Assembly: GCA_021775355.1 (NCBI GenBank) | Contig: JAJFHZ010000021.1 | Span: forward strand, 1-64,000 | Reading direction: 5' to 3' | Length of the DNA: 64,000 nt | Source: Amylibacter sp. | GTDB taxonomy: Bacteria > Pseudomonadota > Alphaproteobacteria > Rhodobacterales > Rhodobacteraceae | Shown: positions 22,964 to 31,335 of the stretch, piece after piece | How positions within the stretch are numbered: position 1 is the stretch's first letter | Layout of the letters: each line of letters begins with the position of its first letter | Position numbers and translations under genes: made by a program | Notes under the pieces: generated by a model | Told to the model about the DNA's origin: nothing | Seen by the model: only the letters and a program-made list of their open reading frames with translations | The model's database searches: none

Positions 22964-23090
22964 ATGCTGTGAATGCCCGATGTTTGGATGAAATGATACA
23001 TAAATGTGAATTATGATACAATATAAAGACAGAAAAGCACATCGAGTAGATAAGTATGCTGCAATGAAATCACAATCAAAGGAGCATAAT

Positions 23091-23906
23091 ATGTGTGGAG
23101 ATCATAAACATGGCAAAATTAACCGCCGACAAGCCCTGACAGGTGGAATGGCTGTTACTGCAGCTGCGGCGGCGTTGGCAGGCAGTGCAGGTAGCGCAAG
23201 CGCTCAAAGCAATCCATATGCCGAACCTGAAAGTCCAGCTTTGCCACCCAGCGATATGATATTGGACCTGTCGCGGGCAGCATTGGTCGTGACAGACCCG
23301 CAAGTGGATTTTTTAAGCCCTGATGGGGTGACTTGGGGCGTTGTTGGTGAAAATGTTACAGAACTCAATACCGTTGAAAATATCGATCGCTTGTTTGCCG
23401 CAGCCAAAGCGCGCGACATCACGGTCGCAGTTTCACCGCACTACTATTACCCAACAGATCACGGTTGGAAGTTTGAAGGTGCTTTGGAAAAACTGATGCA
23501 TAAAATTGGTATGTTCGATCGCAAGGGCCCGCTTAATATGGATGGCTTCGAAGGTTCCGGTGCCGATTTCATGCCGCAGTATAAAAAGTACATCGAAGAC
23601 GGTAAAACCATCGTAACATCACCGCATAAGGTTTACGGTAATGACTCGAATGATCTGGCGTTACAGTTACGTAAAAACGGTGTGGATCAGGTTATATTGG
23701 CCGGCATGTCTGCAAACCTGTGTACCGAATCCCACATGCGTGAATTGATCGAGCAGGGCTTTGAAGTGGCTGTGATCAAAGACGCAACCGCCGCTGCCAA
23801 ATTGCCCGAAGGTGACGGATACCTCGCAGCATTGATCAACTTCAGATACATTGCAAACGCGGTTTGGACCACGGATGAAGTGGTTGATATGATTGCGAAT
23901 GCGTAA
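23091..23906 (+). CDS. Tat-exported isochorismatase-family cysteine hydrolase
   Basis: A 271-residue protein with a twin-arginine signal (NRRQALTGGMAV, hydrophobic AAAAALAGSAG, cleavage near SASAQS), so it is exported folded to the periplasm. The mature part is an isochorismatase-like hydrolase with the expected Asp-Lys-Cys triad: Asp in VVTDPQVDF, Lys in the SPHKVYGND region, and Cys in SANLCTESHMREL. Relatives include ureidoacrylate amidohydrolase (RutB), nicotinamidase and N-carbamoylsarcosine amidase. The start at 23091 has AAAGGAG; an in-frame ATG at 23013 lies in the promoter region. Export is unusual for this family. Confidence 0.85.
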   Translation: MCGDHKHGKINRRQALTGGMAVTAAAAALAGSAGSASAQSNPYAEPESPALPPSDMILDLSRAALVVTDPQVDFLSPDGVTWGVVGENVTELNTVENIDRLFAAAKARDITVAVSPHYYYPTDHGWKFEGALEKLMHKIGMFDRKGPLNMDGFEGSGADFMPQYKKYIEDGKTIVTSPHKVYGNDSNDLALQLRKNGVDQVILAGMSANLCTESHMRELIEQGFEVAVIKDATAAAKLPEGDGYLAALINFRYIANAVWTTDEVVDMIANA

Positions 23907-23910
23907 TCCT

Positions 23911-23934
23911 AAAAGGGGCCTGCGGGCCCCTTTT
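23911..23934. terminator. Bidirectional intrinsic terminator
   Basis: AAAAGGGGCC pairs with GGCCCCTTTT around a TGCG loop. It lies between the plus-strand cysteine hydrolase gene and the convergent ABC permease gene and has A/T runs on both sides, so it should stop transcription from each. Confidence 0.85.
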
Positions 23935-24736
23935 AAGTGTTGGATGCAACATGTCTGTTCAACCGTCTGTTTACATAGCCAAACAGCAGAATGATCAACA
24001 AGGTGAAGCTTATGAAATACACCGCGATGATCGGGTAGGGTACGAACGGGTTGAAGGTTTTGTCGGCGAAATAGCTGGCATAATACAAAGAATCGCCCTT
24101 TTGCCGCCATGCGGGAAAACTGGAAAAGAATACCAATGCTGTTGCGTGGAACAGGAATATCGCCTCATTCGTGTAGCTGGGCCAGGCCAGGCGCAGCATG
24201 GTGGGGAAAGATATGCGCCAGAATATTTGACGTTTAGACATGCCGATGGCAAGGGCTGCTTCAATGTCGCCCTTGGGGATGGATTGCAAGGCACCATAGA
24301 AAATATTCGCCGTGTAGCCTGCGGTATTCAGGAACAGCGTGATTAAAGCACCTAACCATGCTTTGGTCAGCCATTTGGTTTCAACGGTGATTTCGATAAA
24401 GCCAAGGTTAATGTCCCAGCCCATTTTCGGGATCAAAACGAAGGCCTCATAGATCAGGAAAAACTGGATGAATAGGGGGGATCCGCGGATCACAAAGATG
24501 AAAGCGTGTGCAGGAATACGAAAAAGCGCATTGTCGCTGTTGCGCCCCAAGGCAAGGGACACTGCAAAGAAAAAGCCAAGTGACAGGGCAAGGACTGCAA
24601 AATAGACATTCCATATCATGCCTGAACCGATCAAAACAACCTGATCACAAAGCGTAAAATCACTTTTCGGTAATAGCCGTTCGCCAATACCGATGGAACG
24701 CAGGCCGTAGCTGGTCAGGGTGTCAAAACAGCTCAT
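23933..24736 (-). CDS. Polar amino acid ABC transporter permease (HisM/ArtM-like)
   Basis: A 267-residue inner-membrane permease with the EAA loop typical of the family (GAGYTANIFYGALQSIPKG-like segment ending in AALAIGMSKRQIFWRISFP). It forms a heterodimer with the adjacent permease in amino acid importers of the His/Arg/Lys/octopine type. Its ATG overlaps the stop of the upstream permease gene. It is the last gene of a minus-strand operon: ATPase, binding protein, permease, permease. Confidence 0.88.
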   Translation of the reverse strand: MSCFDTLTSYGLRSIGIGERLLPKSDFTLCDQVVLIGSGMIWNVYFAVLALSLGFFFAVSLALGRNSDNALFRIPAHAFIFVIRGSPLFIQFFLIYEAFVLIPKMGWDINLGFIEITVETKWLTKAWLGALITLFLNTAGYTANIFYGALQSIPKGDIEAALAIGMSKRQIFWRISFPTMLRLAWPSYTNEAIFLFHATALVFFSSFPAWRQKGDSLYYASYFADKTFNPFVPYPIIAVYFISFTLLIILLFGYVNRRLNRHVASNT

Positions 24737-25596
24737 GCCATGCTCGCCGCTGTGTTTTGGCCGCGTGACAGCCTGTGCATCAATCGGTCAAAGAACTTTT
24801 CGCTGGCCCATGTCAGGAACAGGTAAAATACCAAAAGGAACAGGAAATACCCCAACCGCCAATCGCCGTGCGGATAAGCAAAACGTGCGGTTTTTGAACC
24901 ACCGAGTTCACGGGCCCAATAGACAATATCCTCAACCCCCAGCAGGAACAGCAGGGGGGATGCTTTGATCAGGATCATCCACAGATTGGATAAACCGGGC
25001 AGGGCATAGACCCACATTTGTGGTAGGTGGATGCGGTGGAATATCTGCCTGGGTGACATGCCAAAGGCGGCACCGGTTTCCAGTTGTCCTTTGGGAACGG
25101 CACCTAATGCGCCGTGGATCGTGTTGGCGGCAAAGGCCCCGAACACAATGGCAAAAGCGATGGTGGCCAGCATAAACCCGTAGGTTTCATGAACCCATTG
25201 CGGTGATGAACTAAGCGGCATTTTCGCCGCAGTACAGACCACGAAATCATTGCCTTGGCGGATGGATTCCGACCAGTCGGAACATTTTATTTTGTGACGG
25301 ATTACCTCGATCCCCTGATCCATTGCAATGGGAACAAACAGGAAGAAGATAATGTCAGGAACGCCGCGCACCATCGAGGTGTAGATCGTGCCGAACCAAC
25401 GCAAGGGTGTAAAAGATGCGCGTCGCGCCAAGGCACCAGTAAAGCCAAAAAGCAGAATAAAGGGAACGGTCAGGGCCAAGAGTGACAAAACCACAAGAAA
25501 GCTGAAATAGAAATTTAAGTGTTTACCATTGCTTAAATAGCAAGACCACCATTGGAAGCCTTCTATCAGTTTTGGATCAGTGCAATATTCAAACAT
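24733..25596 (-). CDS. Polar amino acid ABC transporter permease (HisQ/ArtQ-like)
   Basis: A 287-residue permease with the family EAA motif (HGALGAVPKGQLETGAAFGM followed by SPRQIFHRIHLP) and five or so membrane helices. An insert of about 50 residues with two cysteines (KCSDWSESIRQG, FVVCTAAK) between the early helices is larger than in E. coli HisQ. A strong hairpin (25611-25641) lies between it and the binding-protein gene, so permeases should be made at lower levels than the binding protein. Confidence 0.88.
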   Translation of the reverse strand: MFEYCTDPKLIEGFQWWSCYLSNGKHLNFYFSFLVVLSLLALTVPFILLFGFTGALARRASFTPLRWFGTIYTSMVRGVPDIIFFLFVPIAMDQGIEVIRHKIKCSDWSESIRQGNDFVVCTAAKMPLSSSPQWVHETYGFMLATIAFAIVFGAFAANTIHGALGAVPKGQLETGAAFGMSPRQIFHRIHLPQMWVYALPGLSNLWMILIKASPLLFLLGVEDIVYWARELGGSKTARFAYPHGDWRLGYFLFLLVFYLFLTWASEKFFDRLMHRLSRGQNTAASMA

Positions 25597-25610
25597 TCAT
25601 CTGTCGATCT

Positions 25611-25641
25611 AAAAAAGGGCCGCGCATTTTGCGCAGCCCTT
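25611..25641 (-). terminator. Internal (partial) terminator between binding protein and permease genes
   Basis: On the minus strand AAGGGCTGCGC/GCGCGGCCCTT folds into a hairpin followed by TTTTTT. Its place inside the operon suggests partial read-through, giving an excess of binding protein over permease, a common arrangement in ABC importers. Confidence 0.75.
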
Positions 25642-25648
25642 GAGTTGT

Positions 25649-26383
25649 TTAGTAACCGGCTTTGCGGCCATCAAACCACTTTGCGATCATTGCGTTCAGG
25701 CTGCCGTCCGCTTTCATGGCTGCAATAGCTGCTTCAAACTTGGCTTTCAATTCGCCGTCGCTTTCGCGTACGCCCATGCCAACGCCGCCACCGATTGATA
25801 CGCCGTCACCGACAAATGCCAATGCACCACCTGATGCATCAACGATGTCTTTTAGTGCTGCGTGGTCGGCCAGAACACTGTCGGCTTCGCCGTTGCGTAC
25901 GGCCGCAATCGTGTCTTCCATTGTGGCAAATTCTACCACTGTCGCATCTGATGCAGCGATAAATGCGGCTTGGATTGTGGCGGTTTGTGCCGCAACCGTG
26001 CCTTTGGTGGCAGATGCGTCTGCACCGGCAAGCGCCACATATGAAGATGGGTCAGCAGGGAAGTATTCTGATGTAAAATCAATCACTTCGTCACGTTCCG
26101 CAGTAATTGACATACCGGCCATGATAGTGTCGTAGTTGCCGGATACAAGGTTCGGGATGATGCTATCCCAGTCGTTTGTGACCCATTTGCATTCCAATTC
26201 AGCACGTTTGCACAACTCGTTGCCCAGCTCAATCTCATAGCCGTCAACTTCGCCTTTGTCGTTGATAAAGTTGTAAGGGGCATATGCACCTTCCGTGCCC
26301 ATGCGCACAGTATCTGCAGCCGCTACTGATGTTGTGGTTAATGCGACAAGTGCGATACTTGCCATTAGTTTAGTAAAAGTCAT
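25649..26383 (-). CDS. Periplasmic amino acid-binding protein (SBP_bac_3 family)
   Basis: A 244-residue solute-binding protein with a Sec signal peptide (MASIALVALTTTSVAAA). The mature part begins VRMGTEGAYAPYNFIND, the usual start of family 3 binding proteins, with GMSITAERDEVIDFT near residue 90 and a C-terminal LNAMIAKWFDGRKAGY. It resembles lysine/arginine/ornithine- or histidine-binding proteins, and the paired cysteines in ELCKRAELECKW also occur in some cationic amino acid binders. The true ligand is not known, and the downstream catabolic operon makes a nitrogen compound plausible. Confidence 0.85.
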   Translation of the reverse strand: MTFTKLMASIALVALTTTSVAAADTVRMGTEGAYAPYNFINDKGEVDGYEIELGNELCKRAELECKWVTNDWDSIIPNLVSGNYDTIMAGMSITAERDEVIDFTSEYFPADPSSYVALAGADASATKGTVAAQTATIQAAFIAASDATVVEFATMEDTIAAVRNGEADSVLADHAALKDIVDASGGALAFVGDGVSIGGGVGMGVRESDGELKAKFEAAIAAMKADGSLNAMIAKWFDGRKAGY

Positions 26384-26410
26384 TTAAGTTCTCCCTTATA
26401 TTGACTTGGT

Positions 26411-27184
26411 TTATAACGAACTTGCCAAAAATGCGCGGCAACGTTCGGACTTCGGATTTTCGAACACCTGTTTGGGCGTTCCCATTTCTTCGACCAATCC
26501 CTGATGAAGAAACATGACAGTATTACTGACCTCGCGGGCAAAGCCCATCTCGTGGGTCACGACAATCATTGTGCGGCCCTCTTCGGCCAGTTGACGCATG
26601 ACTTTCAAAACTTCACCGACCAGTTCGGGGTCTAGTGCTGATGTCGGCTCGTCAAACAATAAAACTTTAGGCTCCATCGCAAGTGCGCGTGCAATCGCGA
26701 CGCGTTGCTGTTGACCACCGGATAGCTGACTTGGGTAATTTTCGGCCTTTTCGGCAATACCGACCTTTTCAAGATAAACCATGGCGGATGCCTTGGCTTC
26801 TTCCGGTGTTTTTTTCAAAACCTGCACAGGCCCTTCCATCACATTTTGCAGCACTGTCATATGTGACCACAGATTGAAGCTTTGGAAAACCATACCCAAC
26901 TGGCTGCGCAACCGTTGGATTTGTTTTGGATCGGCCCCCATAGAGCGGCCCTTGTTGTCTTTGCGGATAACGACCTCTTCACCGTCCAGAAAAACGCGGC
27001 CCTGATCCGGGGTTTCCAGAAAATTTATACAACGTAAAAAGGTGCTTTTGCCAGAGCCGGAGCTGCCGATGATCGAAATTACATCACCCTTCTTTGCCGA
27101 CACAGACATGCCTTTTAGAACCTCTAAGGTCCCAAAACTTTTGTGAATATCTTCGGCAACAAGCATTGTATTCTGGTCTGGCAT
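26411..27184 (-). CDS. Polar amino acid ABC transporter ATPase (HisP/GlnQ-like)
   Basis: A 257-residue ATPase with Walker [10 protein letters not shown] (about residue 37), the Q-loop in [10 protein letters not shown], the signature [14 protein letters not shown], Walker [13 protein letters not shown], and the switch histidine in VVTHEMGFA. It is the first gene of the minus-strand transporter operon, with the binding protein and two permeases behind it. It energises import of an amino acid-like substrate. Confidence 0.93.
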
Positions 27185-27439
27185 CTATCCCCCAATTTTG
27201 GCGCACAGTGAAACTAAACAGTAAATTTGCAATGTGGCAAGCAGTTGTTTGCGGCTTAAGCAGTAACGCTGGGTAATCCCTTCGTGAAATCAAAGGTTTG
27301 GTCATGCAGGTGGGTGGGGTTCGTAAGTTTCTTGACAGAATCGTCTTTTATGCGCCAGATACGACTGCTCAAGTGGACACGCAGTGAGCGTAAAAAGGTG
27401 TGTGTCGTTCTTTTTGTTTAACACGAGGAGGGCGATAAT

Positions 27440-27475
27440 ATGCGCCAACTATTAAATAAATCTGGGGGAATCTGA
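27440..27475 (+). CDS. Possible 11-codon leader peptide (uORF)
   Basis: An ATG with a very strong upstream GAGGAGG encodes MRQLLNKSGGI and stops at 27475, two bases before the ATG of the LLM oxidoreductase gene. The next gene has its own GGGGGA inside the short frame. Such coupling could tune translation of the operon. The frame is too short to prove by eye. Confidence 0.4.
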   Translation: MRQLLNKSGGI

Positions 27476-27477
27476 TC

Positions 27478-28521
27478 ATGGATTTTTCCCTATTCGTTCA
27501 CATGGAACGGCTTTCCGCAAAAGATACCTATCAGGATTTACACGACCAGTTTATTGAACTGTCCATAATGGCAGAAGCGGGCGGTATGAATACGGTTTGG
27601 ACCGGTGAACACCATTCAATGGATTTTACCATTTCACCCAATCCGTTTTTATTACTGGTTGAGCTGTCTCAAAAAACCGAGCGTATTCGTTTGGGAACCG
27701 GCACTGTTGTGGCCCCGTTTTGGGAACCGATCAGGCTGGCTGGTGAAGCGGCTATGACCGACCTGATCACTAAGGGTCGTTTGGAACTGGGCATAGCACG
27801 CGGTGCTTATTCCTATGAATACGACCGTCTTGGTGGCGGCATGGACGCATGGGCGGCAGGCGAGCATTTACGTGAAATGGTACCTGCGTTAAAGGGGCTT
27901 TGGGCGGGCGATTATGCGATGGACGGTAAACATTACGCGTTTCCGAAATCCACAGCCGTGCCAAAGCCTGTGCAGGCAGGTGGCCCGCCTGTCTGGGTGG
28001 CCGCACGTGATCCGAACTCGTTCGATTTTGCGATGAAAAACGATTGTCATATTCAGGTAACACCGCTTTGGAATGGTGATGAAGAGGTTGTGGACTTGAT
28101 GGTGAAATTCAAAGAAGCGAAGGCTTTGAATCCTGACAAGTCCCCGAAAGTCATGTTGCTGAACCACACGGCTGTGGGCGCGAATGAGGCTGATATTGCC
28201 CAAGACGCACAAGACCTGTCGCGGTTTTATTGCACTTTTGGCGCGTGGTTTCGCAATGAGCGGCCCATTATCAATGGCCAGATCAAGGAATTAAGTGTCG
28301 AAGAAATGGCTAAAATCGAAATGTTCAGTCCGGAAAATATGCGTAAAAACAATGTGGTCGGCACACCCGATCATGTGACGGAACGGATCAAAAGCTTTCA
28401 GGCAATGGGCTATGACGAATATAGCTACTGGATTGATAGCGGTGCCAGTTTCAAGGATAAAAAGCGTAGCCTTCAGTTATTCATTGATGAAGTAATGCCG
28501 AATTTCAAAGGGAATGCGTGA
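27478..28521 (+). CDS. LLM-class (luciferase-like) flavin-dependent oxidoreductase
   Basis: A 347-residue TIM-barrel monooxygenase of the bacterial luciferase-like family, expected to use reduced FMN supplied by a separate reductase. Family features are GGMNTVWTGEHHSMDF (about residues 34-50), RIRLGTGTVVAP, and the glycine-rich GRLELGIARGAYSYEYDRLG. RutA, which opens the uracil ring, and TgnB, which opens the trigonelline ring, belong to this broad class. It is the first gene of a tight four-gene operon with overlapping ends. No flavin reductase gene is adjacent. Confidence 0.88.
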   Translation: MDFSLFVHMERLSAKDTYQDLHDQFIELSIMAEAGGMNTVWTGEHHSMDFTISPNPFLLLVELSQKTERIRLGTGTVVAPFWEPIRLAGEAAMTDLITKGRLELGIARGAYSYEYDRLGGGMDAWAAGEHLREMVPALKGLWAGDYAMDGKHYAFPKSTAVPKPVQAGGPPVWVAARDPNSFDFAMKNDCHIQVTPLWNGDEEVVDLMVKFKEAKALNPDKSPKVMLLNHTAVGANEADIAQDAQDLSRFYCTFGAWFRNERPIINGQIKELSVEEMAKIEMFSPENMRKNNVVGTPDHVTERIKSFQAMGYDEYSYWIDSGASFKDKKRSLQLFIDEVMPNFKGNA

Positions 28522-29129
28522 TGGATTTAGTGCGAAAATATGTGACACATGTTGAAGAAATACATGTTGAGGGCGGCAAACGGGTGGATAATCCGCCGCG
28601 TATGATTGCGGTTGCCGCTGTGCTGAAAAATCCGTGGGCAGGGCAAGGATTTGTTGAAAATTTGAAACCCGCGATTTTGAAATATGCACCACCCTTGGGC
28701 GCGGAACTGACTCGCCGTATTCTGGAAATAGCAGGTGGCGGTGACGCGATTGAAGCTTATGGAAAATCTGCGGTGGTAGGGACTGAAGCCGAAATCGAAC
28801 ATGGATCCGGCTTTATTCACACATTGCGTTTCGGCAATCATTTTCGCAAAGGTGTGGGGGCCACCAGTTATCTGAGTTTTGCCAATACACGCGGTGGGCC
28901 GGGTGCAAGCGTGCAAATCCCGTTGATGCACAAACATGATGCGGGGATGCGGTCACATTATCTAACGCTTGAATTTACCATACCCGATGCACCCGCACCT
29001 GATGAAATGATTATTGCCCTTGGCGCTGCCACGGGCGGGCGGCCACATCACCGCATCGGTGATCGCTATCAGGACATCGCAGAAATGGAAGCGGGCGGTG
29101 AAGAAACCGTGGTTGAGGCCACAAAGTGA
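28521..29129 (+). CDS. AA_synth (DUF1185, PF06684) family protein
   Basis: A 202-residue protein of the family annotated as amino acid synthesis protein, whose biochemical role is not established. It begins MDLVRKYVTHVEEIHVEGG and has the conserved AVAAVLKNPWAGQGFVENL and the late GRPHHRIGDRYQD. Its ATG overlaps the stop of the LLM gene by one base, and the next gene starts inside its end. The repeated association with LLM oxidoreductases suggests a role in a catabolic pathway, not amino acid synthesis; this is inference. Confidence 0.8.
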   Translation: MDLVRKYVTHVEEIHVEGGKRVDNPPRMIAVAAVLKNPWAGQGFVENLKPAILKYAPPLGAELTRRILEIAGGGDAIEAYGKSAVVGTEAEIEHGSGFIHTLRFGNHFRKGVGATSYLSFANTRGGPGASVQIPLMHKHDAGMRSHYLTLEFTIPDAPAPDEMIIALGAATGGRPHHRIGDRYQDIAEMEAGGEETVVEATK

Positions 29130-29866
29130 CAGAGCTGATTTTTTTGCACGGGGTCGGGTTGGATCGGCAGATTTGGCGACCTATGCAGGATGCTTTGCCG
29201 GATGTGACCACACACAGCTATGATTTGCGCGGACACGGGGCGGGGCCCAATTGGGATGGCCCTGCCAGTCTGGATGGGTTTGTCTCCGACCTATGGGATC
29301 ATGCCGATGGGCTTGGATTGGACAGTTTTGCCCTTTGCGGTTTTTCGCTGGGTGCGATGATTGCACAATGGGCGGCACTGTCACAACCCGCGCGGATTTC
29401 ACACCTTATTCTGTTGAACGGTGTTTATCAGCGCACGGCTGATCAAATGGCAGGGGTGCAGGCGCGGTTTGACCAGGCGAAATTACATGGGCCGCAGATT
29501 ATGATAGATGCGGCATTGGAACGTTGGTTTCCGCCGGAATTTGCATCCAAGCACCCGGAATATCTGGCACAGATTCGGGCGCGTCTGGAAGGCAATAATA
29601 CCGAACAATTCATGCGCAGTTACAGCCTGTTTGCCCATGAAGGGGCGCAAATTGATGGGCGTTTAAAGGAATTACAGATCCCTACACTTGTGGCAACGGG
29701 TGGATTGGATGCAGGTTCTACCCCTGAAATGACGCACCAAATGGCGTCAGAGATTATGGGCGCGAAATCCGTGATCTTCAAAGATGCAGCCCACATGCTG
29801 CCTATGCAAAAGCCGCATGAACTGGCAAGGTTGATCATGGGCGTGTTGCGAAAGGAAACAGAATGA
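29126..29866 (+). CDS. Alpha/beta hydrolase (enol-lactonase/RutD-like)
   Basis: A 246-residue alpha/beta hydrolase with oxyanion-hole HG (LIFLHGVG), nucleophile S74 in GFSLGA, an acidic residue in GGLDAGS near 195, and catalytic His in DAAHMLPM. It resembles 3-oxoadipate enol-lactonase and RutD, which cleave lactones or carbamates/enamines. The start is a GTG at 29126 that overlaps the previous stop (GTGA). Its position between the AA_synth gene and the aldehyde dehydrogenase suggests hydrolysis of a ring-opened intermediate. Confidence 0.85.
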   Translation: MTELIFLHGVGLDRQIWRPMQDALPDVTTHSYDLRGHGAGPNWDGPASLDGFVSDLWDHADGLGLDSFALCGFSLGAMIAQWAALSQPARISHLILLNGVYQRTADQMAGVQARFDQAKLHGPQIMIDAALERWFPPEFASKHPEYLAQIRARLEGNNTEQFMRSYSLFAHEGAQIDGRLKELQIPTLVATGGLDAGSTPEMTHQMASEIMGAKSVIFKDAAHMLPMQKPHELARLIMGVLRKETE

Positions 29867-31335
29867 AGTTTCAGCTTTATATTGACGGTGCTTTTTGTGA
29901 CGGTGCCAAGGGTCAGCGTATCGATTGCGTTAACCCAAGTGACAACGAGGTTTGGAATACGGTTCCAGAAGCGACCGAAGAAGATGTTGATCGGGCGGTT
30001 AATGCAGCACACCGTGCTTTTAGTGCTGGGCCTTGGGCGGATATGACCCCATCCGCACGCGGTAAGTGCCTGTATCGACTAGGTGATCTACTGGAAGATC
30101 ACGCCGAGGAATTCGCTGAAGTTGAAAGCCGCGATTCAGGTAAAATCCTGCGTGAAACCGCAGCCCAATGCCGTTATATGGCGGATTACCTGCGCTTCTA
30201 TGCGGGGCTTGCGGATAAGGTTACAGGCCAGACCTTGGCGCATGACAAACCCGATATGATCTGTATGACAGTGCGCGAACCTTTGGGTGTTGTTGCCGCC
30301 GTTGTGCCGTGGAACAGCCAGATTTTCCTGACTTGCGTCAAATTGGGGCCGGCCTTGGCAATGGGTAATACCATTGTGATCAAAGCATCTGAAGATGCAC
30401 CTTGTCCCGTACTGAAATTTGCCGAATTGGTGCATAAAGCAGGCTTCCCTGCGGGGGTTGTGAATGTTGTGGCGGGATACGGCCAAACCTGTGGCGCACA
30501 TCTGACAGCGCATCCGTTTGTTGCCCGTGTGGCCTTTACCGGTGGGGTGGAAGCGGCTCGAAATGTGGTACGTAATACCGCTGACAACTTCGCGCTTTTG
30601 ACACTGGAATTGGGGGGTAAAGCCCCGGTTTTGGTGTTCGATGATGCCAATCTGGAAAGTGCTGCAAACGGGGTTGTGGCGGGTGTCTTTGCAGCCGCCG
30701 GGCAATCCTGTGTTTCCGGATCGCGCCTGTTGGTTCAGGAAGGCGTGGGTGATGAATTTCTGGCGATGCTGATCAAAAAAGCGCAAGCGATCAGGGTTGG
30801 TGATCCAATGGATAAAGCCACAGAAATGGGCCCACTTTGCACCCGGCGCCAACGTGACCGTATTGAAAGCTTATTGGCGGATAGTGTTAAAAACGGCGCA
30901 AGGGTTCTGACGGGTGGAAAAGTGCCGGCAGGTTTCGACAGCGGCAATTATTTTGAACCCACAATCGTATCTTGCGAAGCGGACGGATTGGCCGTGTTTG
31001 AAGAAGAGCTGTTTGGCCCCGTGCTAAGTGTGCGCAGCTTCAAAACCGAAGATGAAGCGGTCGCTTTGGCCAATAACTCTCGCTTTCATTATGCGGGTGG
31101 TGCGTTCACACGCGATTTGGCTCGTGGCACACGGTTAACCCGCAAACTGGCAGGCGGTGTGACTTATATCAATACATGGCGGGTGATTTCACCCAGTGCC
31201 CCCTTTGGCGGCAATAAGGACACGGGTTATGGCCGTGAAAGCGGTATGGATACGATGCTGGATTATTCGCGCACCCGCACGGTTTGGATCAATACATCTG
31301 ATGAGCCAATGGCTGACCCGTTTGTAATGCGTTAA
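29863..31335 (+). CDS. NAD(P)-dependent aldehyde dehydrogenase
   Basis: A 490-residue aldehyde dehydrogenase with N151 in PWN, E249 in LELGGK, and catalytic C283 in GQSCVSGS. Length and motifs fit betaine aldehyde dehydrogenase/succinate semialdehyde dehydrogenase-like families. The ATG overlaps the hydrolase stop. As the last gene of the four-gene operon it probably oxidises an aldehyde released by the pathway. Its stop overlaps by four bases the stop of the convergent choW gene, and there is no space for a terminator. Confidence 0.92.
   Translation: MKFQLYIDGAFCDGAKGQRIDCVNPSDNEVWNTVPEATEEDVDRAVNAAHRAFSAGPWADMTPSARGKCLYRLGDLLEDHAEEFAEVESRDSGKILRETAAQCRYMADYLRFYAGLADKVTGQTLAHDKPDMICMTVREPLGVVAAVVPWNSQIFLTCVKLGPALAMGNTIVIKASEDAPCPVLKFAELVHKAGFPAGVVNVVAGYGQTCGAHLTAHPFVARVAFTGGVEAARNVVRNTADNFALLTLELGGKAPVLVFDDANLESAANGVVAGVFAAAGQSCVSGSRLLVQEGVGDEFLAMLIKKAQAIRVGDPMDKATEMGPLCTRRQRDRIESLLADSVKNGARVLTGGKVPAGFDSGNYFEPTIVSCEADGLAVFEEELFGPVLSVRSFKTEDEAVALANNSRFHYAGGAFTRDLARGTRLTRKLAGGVTYINTWRVISPSAPFGGNKDTGYGRESGMDTMLDYSRTRTVWINTSDEPMADPFVMR

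Follow-up and report, generated by a model that had tools for sequence, protein, structure and literature searches.

A TgnB-type oxygenase operon with a divergent transporter and a conserved 5′ leader in Amylibacter, a candidate catabolic unit for a pyridinium betaine

The subject of this study is a putative catabolic gene cluster of Amylibacter sp. (Rhodobacteraceae; assembly GCA_021775355.1, 3.49 Mb in 41 contigs), which was analysed in a window comprising positions 1 to 64,000 of contig JAJFHZ010000021.1. Four consecutive genes encode a luciferase-like monooxygenase (LLM), an AA_synth protein, an alpha/beta hydrolase and an aldehyde dehydrogenase (ALDH). They are preceded by a conserved leader sequence and by the divergently oriented genes of a polar amino acid ABC transporter (PAAT), and the features of the locus are compiled in Table 1. 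The original prediction had set the start of the operon at position 27440, which is the ATG of an 11-codon open reading frame (ORF) in the leader and not the start of the LLM gene.

Table 1. Genes and leader elements of the Amylibacter locus (positions refer to the window)
Feature	Position	Strand	Basis and remarks
PAAT, two permeases	23933-25596	-	ORFs, relatives
PAAT, family-3 substrate-binding protein	25649-26383	-	Pfam, structure-database sequence match
PAAT, ATPase	26411-27184	-	divergent from operon, conserved with operon
TTGACA, -35-like box upstream of leader	27332-27337	+	consensus match; box not listed by promoter scan
Conserved 81-nt leader GCUCAAG...AUGCGCCA	27367-27447	+	five-locus comparison
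Core motif CUCAAGUGGACACGCAGUGAG	27368-27388	+	recurs in three gammaproteobacterial LLM operons
Proposed stem 1 (CUCA with UGAG)	27368-27371 paired with 27385-27388	+	unchanged in 8/8 loci
Proposed pseudoknot stem 2 (GACACGC with GUGUGUC)	27376-27382 paired with 27400-27406	+	A-rich linker before second strand
Alternative nested hairpin	27397-27446	+	RNA fold; 3′ arm holds Shine-Dalgarno GAGGAGG (27425-27431) and leader-ORF ATG
Short leader ORF MRQLLNKSGGI (stop)	27440-27475	+	stop 2 nt before LLM ATG
LLM (bacterial-luciferase family), TgnB superclade	27478-28521	+	ORF, Pfam, tree; structure model with predicted local distance difference test (pLDDT) 86.8
AA_synth (PF06684/DUF1185) protein, TgnF-like	28518-29129	+	GTG start; Pfam, structure model
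Alpha/beta hydrolase, distant PcaD-like, outside tgn-type hydrolase clade	29126-29866	+	GTG start; Pfam, tree
ALDH	29863-31335	+	Pfam, tree

Each neighbouring pair of the four operon genes overlaps by 4 nt, and the assignments on the plus strand agree with Pfam (Bac_luciferase, E = 1.6e-48; AA_synth, 6.2e-70; Abhydrolase_6, 2.9e-19; Aldedh, 1.3e-156), which bears out the predicted operon with overlapping ends. None of the four proteins reaches the cut-off of any NCBIfam family, the best match of the LLM being 109 bits versus a cut-off of 244. Gene content and order are identical in the loci L081, L090 and L101 (LLM identity 86-93%), thereby indicating that the operon is more than a chance arrangement. 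Judged by the LLM, the nearest named relatives are metagenome-assembled genomes (MAGs) of Amylibacter. The flanks were recovered as predicted as well: the transporter occupies positions 23933-27184 of the minus strand, and choW, choX and BetI pass the NCBIfam cut-offs.

The phylogenetic position of the oxygenase was determined with 78 LLMs together with RutA and SsuD of Escherichia coli. The window LLM and four relatives (87-93% identity) form a single lineage with maximal support (100/100), which is nested within a larger, equally well-supported clade of 56 rows that also contains the LLMs of trigonelline-type clusters from the Sinorhizobium plasmid pSymA (L032), Rhizobium etli (L078), Leisingera (L033) and Acinetobacter (L077). 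The designation “trigonelline-type” is based on gene content and on the available part of PMC7913881. A second roseobacter group likewise belongs to the larger clade, as do the gammaproteobacterial loci L083, L084 and L089, which form a small group of their own. The identity of the window LLM to members beyond its own lineage amounts to 53-62%. A union of this lineage and the three gammaproteobacterial LLMs in one clade is not recovered by the tree, nor is it rejected by the approximately unbiased test (p-AU 0.058). A separate LLM class “A” (35-45% identity) branches outside the larger clade, and RutA and SsuD are remote outliers on very long branches. The combination of a TgnB-type LLM with a hydrolase and an ALDH is suggestive of the predicted oxidative opening of a nitrogen compound, and neither tree nor NCBIfam places the enzyme among alkane or sulfonate monooxygenases, an outcome that would have spoken against the original prediction. 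The modelled fold is shared with RslO1 (7bip; Z 36.0, root-mean-square deviation (rmsd) 2.2, 318 aligned residues), luciferase and RutA (6sgl; Z 27.8, rmsd 2.9, 300 aligned). LLM genes at E ≤ 1e-40 were found in 18 of the 33 genomes of the genus sample, five of which harbor the window lineage (identity at least 87%); in the family sample they are present in 52 of 198 genomes, and the lineage is confined to the source genome.

The proposed comparison of AA_synth and LLM neighbourhoods gave the following picture. Of the 78 LLM loci, 66 had AA_synth labelled by our script. In the subset of 57 loci flanked by 7.5 kb or more on both sides the count was 53, which the annotation of L079 raises to 54, the gene being unrecognised at L058, L068 and L089. 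An alignment of 64 AA_synth proteins encoded at LLM loci shows thirteen residues without any exchange (E79, K83, E94, H95, H101, N107, R110, K139, R145, H147, E163, R179 and R183), a pattern that would suit an enzyme better than a purely accessory protein. Its Pfam score is 234.6 bits (cut-off 27), and the clear matches of the structure model (pLDDT 77) are limited to two DUF1185 structures, 3byq (BB2672; Z 22.1, rmsd 2.4, 176 aligned) and 2qtp (SPO0826; Z 20.2, rmsd 1.5, 146 aligned), with a sequence identity of 30-31% within the structural alignments. The available part of PMC2954203 links these two proteins to branched-chain amino acid genes. The original prediction had described the role of AA_synth proteins as not established. 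This holds for a catalytic role; however, the DUF1185 homologue TgnF has already been described as stimulating the TgnE-dependent oxidation of succinate semialdehyde, and the authors of that description observed no comparable stimulation by HcdD, the family member that they studied (PMC7913881, available part). The idea of a RutC-like deaminase found no support, since the Z scores to Rid proteins are just 5.4-6.3, and even the match to 9bk9 (Z 6.3, rmsd 3.5, 115 aligned) is below the level of meaning. The AA_synth tree (65 rows), calculated with a quick method, did not firmly place the window lineage. Several genomes of the family carry AA_synth as two adjacent copies, e.g., G032:C51 and G131:C146.

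Related clusters of the larger LLM clade in Sinorhizobium, Rhizobium, Leisingera and Acinetobacter share the arrangement AA_synth-hydrolase-flavin reductase-LLM-ALDH, with a succinate semialdehyde dehydrogenase (SSADH) gene close by in several of them. The script labelled a flavin reductase at 43 of the 48 loci of the tgn-type and second groups, at 16 of 22 class A loci and at two of the three gammaproteobacterial loci; L032 was scored as lacking one, though it is annotated with such a gene. Two proteins with a flavin reductase domain (PF01613) are encoded elsewhere in the source genome. In one of them (L148 8537-9712, contig C28) the domain is joined to a LysR substrate-binding domain, and the gene belongs to a cluster with Rieske oxygenase, HpaB, Rid and DUF1028 genes. 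A fusion of this kind is also clustered with Rieske oxygenases at L113 14949-16115, together with a GNAT acetyltransferase. Another type of fusion, a family III CoA-transferase with a flavin reductase domain according to Pfam, lies beside the class A LLM of L115 (11870-13978), and a similar protein at L111 (1106-3217), also next to a class A LLM, was recognised by its flavin reductase match and length only. An SSADH gene was not recognised at the window locus, and a homologue of the Sinorhizobium SSADH (66%) is located elsewhere in the genome.

The linkage of transporter and operon is conserved. All four PAAT genes adjoin the LLM gene in L082, L090 and L101, and in L081 the ATPase gene is present up to the contig end. 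The interval between pntB and the ABH gene of L101 consists of the eight unit genes only (frames of at least 90 residues), and without the unit an ABH homologue (49-50%) directly follows pntB in G120 and G228 (L135, L136), as do ABH and major facilitator superfamily homologues in G199 (L137). The stretches L159, L164 and L165 (G214, G227 and G206) harbor pntB, choW, choX and betI at the pntB-pccB locus with neither LLM nor PAAT genes between them. Conversely, choWX are missing beside the operon in L081 and L090, and choWX together with betI in L101. This distribution is indicative of choline genes that are residents of the locus and of a moving unit composed of transporter and operon. The choline flank, which the original prediction had used as a substrate clue, thus loses its weight, and choline or betaine as a substrate deduced from the neighbourhood is rejected. 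Methylamine use via gmaS was likewise dismissed, with no gene above the TIGR03105 cut-off.

The binding protein is closest to the solved structure 3i6v, named as a binder of the His/Glu/Gln/Arg/opine family (328 bits), and a small zwitterion would fit as its ligand. In Paracoccus ferrooxidans (L173 6095-10743) a PAAT of the same family has a glutamine synthetase gene as its neighbour. The AraC gene (22046) and the isochorismatase gene (23013) next to the transporter were rejected as parts of the unit: they were not seen beside it in L090 and L101, L082 has a different, unlabelled frame at this position, and the stretch of L081 ends before it. The isochorismatase-family hydrolase (23013-23906) adjacent to the AraC regulator has an N-terminus that we take to be twin-arginine-like. 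In L090 (2522-4310) an Eco29kI-like restriction enzyme and a C5 methyltransferase are inserted between pntB and the PAAT genes.

The leader is the part of the locus that a specialist would not expect. Its mean pairwise identity at the five loci of the lineage is 96%, compared with 80% for the LLM coding sequence and 54% for the preceding 190 nt. The TTGACA box is kept at all five loci and also occurs upstream of the three gammaproteobacterial leaders. Of the 21 core bases, 18 are conserved in L084 and L089, one of which is from Thioglobus, and L083 has a copy with one inserted base; all three copies lie in the 5′ untranslated region (UTR) of LLM operons. A covariance model built from the five leaders was run over 95 sources (1.52 Mb) and matched, apart from the window, L084 (21.3 bits, E 0.19) and L089 (18.8 bits, E 0.65) only. 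These scores are weak, yet the positions are exact, since both matches fall in the 5′ UTR of an LLM operon in a gammaproteobacterial MAG. In these two loci the core starts 7 nt after a TATATT box and should therefore lie in the transcript. No further core copy with up to four substitutions (three variable bases degenerate) was detected in 1,883,530 bases, a search space without the whole source genome and the public genome collections. For the other 70 of the 78 LLM loci the searches returned no leader copy; one of these searches, a 400-nt scan, began upstream of the first linked gene recognised by script and thus, where a gene was missed (e.g., L032), upstream of an inner gene. A looser pattern with a variable spacer resulted in five matches with two substitutions (L042, L053, two in L058, L101), which we regard as chance. 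The leader has no exact match in viral contigs, and plasmid matches in blastn were found only at E values of 2-5. Titles and abstract beginnings of the papers listed by the literature searches yielded no publication on this leader, which is not proof that none is in print.

The leader ORF is equipped with a Shine-Dalgarno sequence and stops 1-3 nt before the LLM start at all five loci. The peptides of the relatives are MRQICKYCGKV, MRQLSKIRGGI, MRQLTHTHLSPTNGGI and MRQLSHTRGGI. A short ATG frame (MTFK...) directly follows the core and precedes the first gene in L084 and L089; it is unlike the MRQ frame of Amylibacter.

The proposed stem 2 crosses stem 1 as in an H-type pseudoknot. Stem 1 is invariant and hence uninformative with respect to covariation. 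In the eight leaders 94.3% of the cells of the pseudoknot pair, versus 18-68% in versions slid along the alignment, and the covariation score of 0.097 exceeds that of the slid versions (0.006-0.071) and was reached by six of 500 shuffles. One stem-2 pair shows a compensatory change, A-U in five and G-C in three copies, i.e., alpha- versus gammaproteobacterial ones. A change on both sides of one pair is found in two slid versions too, and shuffled alignments do equally well in the number of further pair types. Of the seven pairs of stem 2, three are disrupted in some copies. The alternative nested hairpin shows no covariation, has one broken pair in L090 and hides the Shine-Dalgarno sequence in Amylibacter. 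Rfam returned three matches for positions 27100-27700 (E up to 10), all below the gathering scores, two of which lie on the opposite strand and overlap the leader ORF at its end; L083, L084 and L089 gave none at gathering score. Long-range pairing of the 5′ motif with a complementary stretch close to the start codon was discarded as not general: it comprises only 5/8 Watson-Crick pairs in the five Amylibacter loci versus 7, 8 and 8 of 8 in L083, L084 and L089, where seven pairs were reached by 9-19 of 500 shuffled 8-mers each.

A riboswitch-like sensor of a pathway compound is a plausible function for this leader. Its elaboration into a new riboswitch class is tentative and on balance somewhat unlikely: an H-type pseudoknot ahead of the TgnB-type oxygenase operons of Amylibacter and some gammaproteobacteria including Ca. 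Thioglobus, which would sense an N-methylpyridinium-type substrate or product and replace the GntR regulator found in other clusters of the tgn type. That the leader is no RNA switch at all, but a site for protein binding or a simple leader-peptide attenuator, is a substantial possibility, even if we would not quite bet on it. The conservation of the short ORF (MRQ at all five loci, GGI at four) and the thin covariation, whose both-sides count was reached by 415 of 500 shuffles, are in its favor, whereas the recurrence of the core in gammaproteobacteria without the MRQ ORF, its presumed transcription in L084 and L089 and the preservation of most of the two proposed stems speak against it.

Taking the gene content, gene order, trees, transporter linkage and recurring leader as observed, we infer a leader-controlled, eight-gene catabolic unit for trigonelline or a close pyridinium betaine, a reading to which we assign nearly an even chance. 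The divergent ABC transporter would import a small zwitterionic nitrogen compound. The TgnB-type LLM, supplied with FMNH2 by a reductase encoded elsewhere, would insert oxygen and open a C-N bond, most likely that of an N-methylpyridinium ring. The resulting aldehyde would be oxidised by the ALDH, and an N-acyl or lactone product cleaved by the hydrolase. AA_synth may assist or catalyse a step around the semialdehyde, as described for TgnF. The 5′ leader probably sets expression, with a riboswitch-like pseudoknot that would control how accessible the leader-ORF start is.

Several observations count against this reconstruction. The hydrolase groups with the partners of class A LLMs (98/99) and not with the tgn-type hydrolases, on a long stem and with a long-branch warning for the tree (69 rows with RutD); the same holds true for the ALDH (96/86; 73 rows with one SSADH), again with a long stem and an unsettled bootstrap. 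The later steps of the pathway may thus differ from those of Tgn. These trees, like that of AA_synth, omit those of the 78 LLM loci whose protein is cut, unlabelled or short. None of the trees, that of the LLM included, contains a tgn protein of proven function, the cluster of Acinetobacter baumannii substituting for that of A. baylyi. A flavin reductase was labelled at none of the five loci of the window lineage, two of which (L081, L082) are cut on one side. PAATs of the same family occur with no LLM within 7 kb in three other Rhodobacterales records, once next to a glutamine synthetase gene. The leader itself is missing in the gammaproteobacterial loci L077, L086 and L088, and the three that share it lack a script-labelled AA_synth gene, so that the presence of one is not coupled to that of the other. 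Finally, the minimum free energy of the leader fold reaches a z of only -1.87 (10 of 200 shuffles fold equally well), and the pseudoknot hinges on one compensatory pair, which probably reflects a single event because the leader sequences form two groups.

Other substrates have to be weighed against the pyridinium betaine. A substrate of the aliphatic type, with a quaternary or methylated amino group (a carnitine-like compound, a methylated lysine or another betaine) and a non-aromatic C-N bond as the target of the LLM, is unlikely in our view. The grouping of hydrolase and ALDH with class A and the resemblance of the PAAT binding protein to Lys/Arg/opine binders fit this alternative and weaken our own. 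The class A gene of L079 adjoins annotated ProVWX genes, and that of L115 adjoins 3-hydroxyacyl-CoA dehydrogenase, BKACE and the aforementioned CoA-transferase-flavin reductase fusion, a possible carnitine-like LLM pathway. However, the window LLM itself is placed outside class A with full support, and the pntB-pccB interval, in the window as in L101, contains no recognised counterpart of those class A partner genes.

Homarine (N-methylpicolinate), the isomer that is more common in the sea, is distinctly improbable as a substrate. According to the available part of PMC8269262 marine particles are rich in homarine and contain far less trigonelline, with a correction lowering the homarine values, and a homarine pathway was reported in 2026, as cited in the accessible portion of PMC13390433; the same part of PMC8269262 argues, however, that ring opening of the TgnAB type is sterically unlikely on homarine. 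Least probable of all is another N-heterocycle or a nitrogen-free substrate, converted in a Rut-like, sulfonate or luciferase-like reaction. The common fold of RslO1, luciferase and RutA would allow for it, whereas the large distance of RutA and SsuD from the LLM clade and the low NCBIfam score argue against it.

Pyridinium betaines are sizeable reservoirs of carbon and nitrogen that have been poorly tracked. The unit supplies marker genes for a further lineage that likely consumes them, and it offers a system in which the unsolved function of AA_synth proteins can be addressed. Should the leader be a switch, its ligand could identify the substrate of this oxygenase lineage and define a new class of RNA sensors.

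The riboswitches preQ1 and SAM-II are H-type pseudoknots in short 5′ UTRs with an A-rich linker near the Shine-Dalgarno sequence. The Amylibacter leader resembles them in its short 5′ UTR with a proposed pseudoknot, its A-rich linker and the nearby Shine-Dalgarno sequence, and differs by the lack of an Rfam match. The Rut pathway of E. coli shares with the window the LLM fold and an alpha/beta hydrolase, and the weak similarity of the RutC fold to AA_synth (Z 5.4, rmsd 3.2, 96 aligned) is not significant. Unlike Rut, which has the symporter RutG, the window encodes an ABC transporter, its LLM is remote in sequence, and the eight-gene unit as delimited in L101 contains no analogue of RutB, RutC or RutF. 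The predicted “Rut/Tgn-like” character is accordingly reduced to its second half, which the position of the LLM within the clade of trigonelline-type enzymes sustains. The Tgn cluster of A. baylyi is described in PMC7913881, PMC8269262 and PMC11354265, and TgnE as the oxidiser of succinate semialdehyde in the first of them (available parts). The A. baylyi cluster, its counterparts in Sinorhizobium, Rhizobium and roseobacters, and the window have the LLM clade, a TgnF-like AA_synth, an alpha/beta hydrolase and an ALDH in common, and in some of these clusters an ABC transporter is linked as in the window. In contrast to them, no flavin reductase, GntR or SSADH gene was recognised at the window locus, hydrolase and ALDH belong to another lineage, a PAAT takes the place of the POT-type transporter, the LLM gene comes first, and a leader sequence is present. 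Due to its reductase and hydrolase the operon is not a plain member of the Tgn type; it would work like Tgn, yet represents a new variant.

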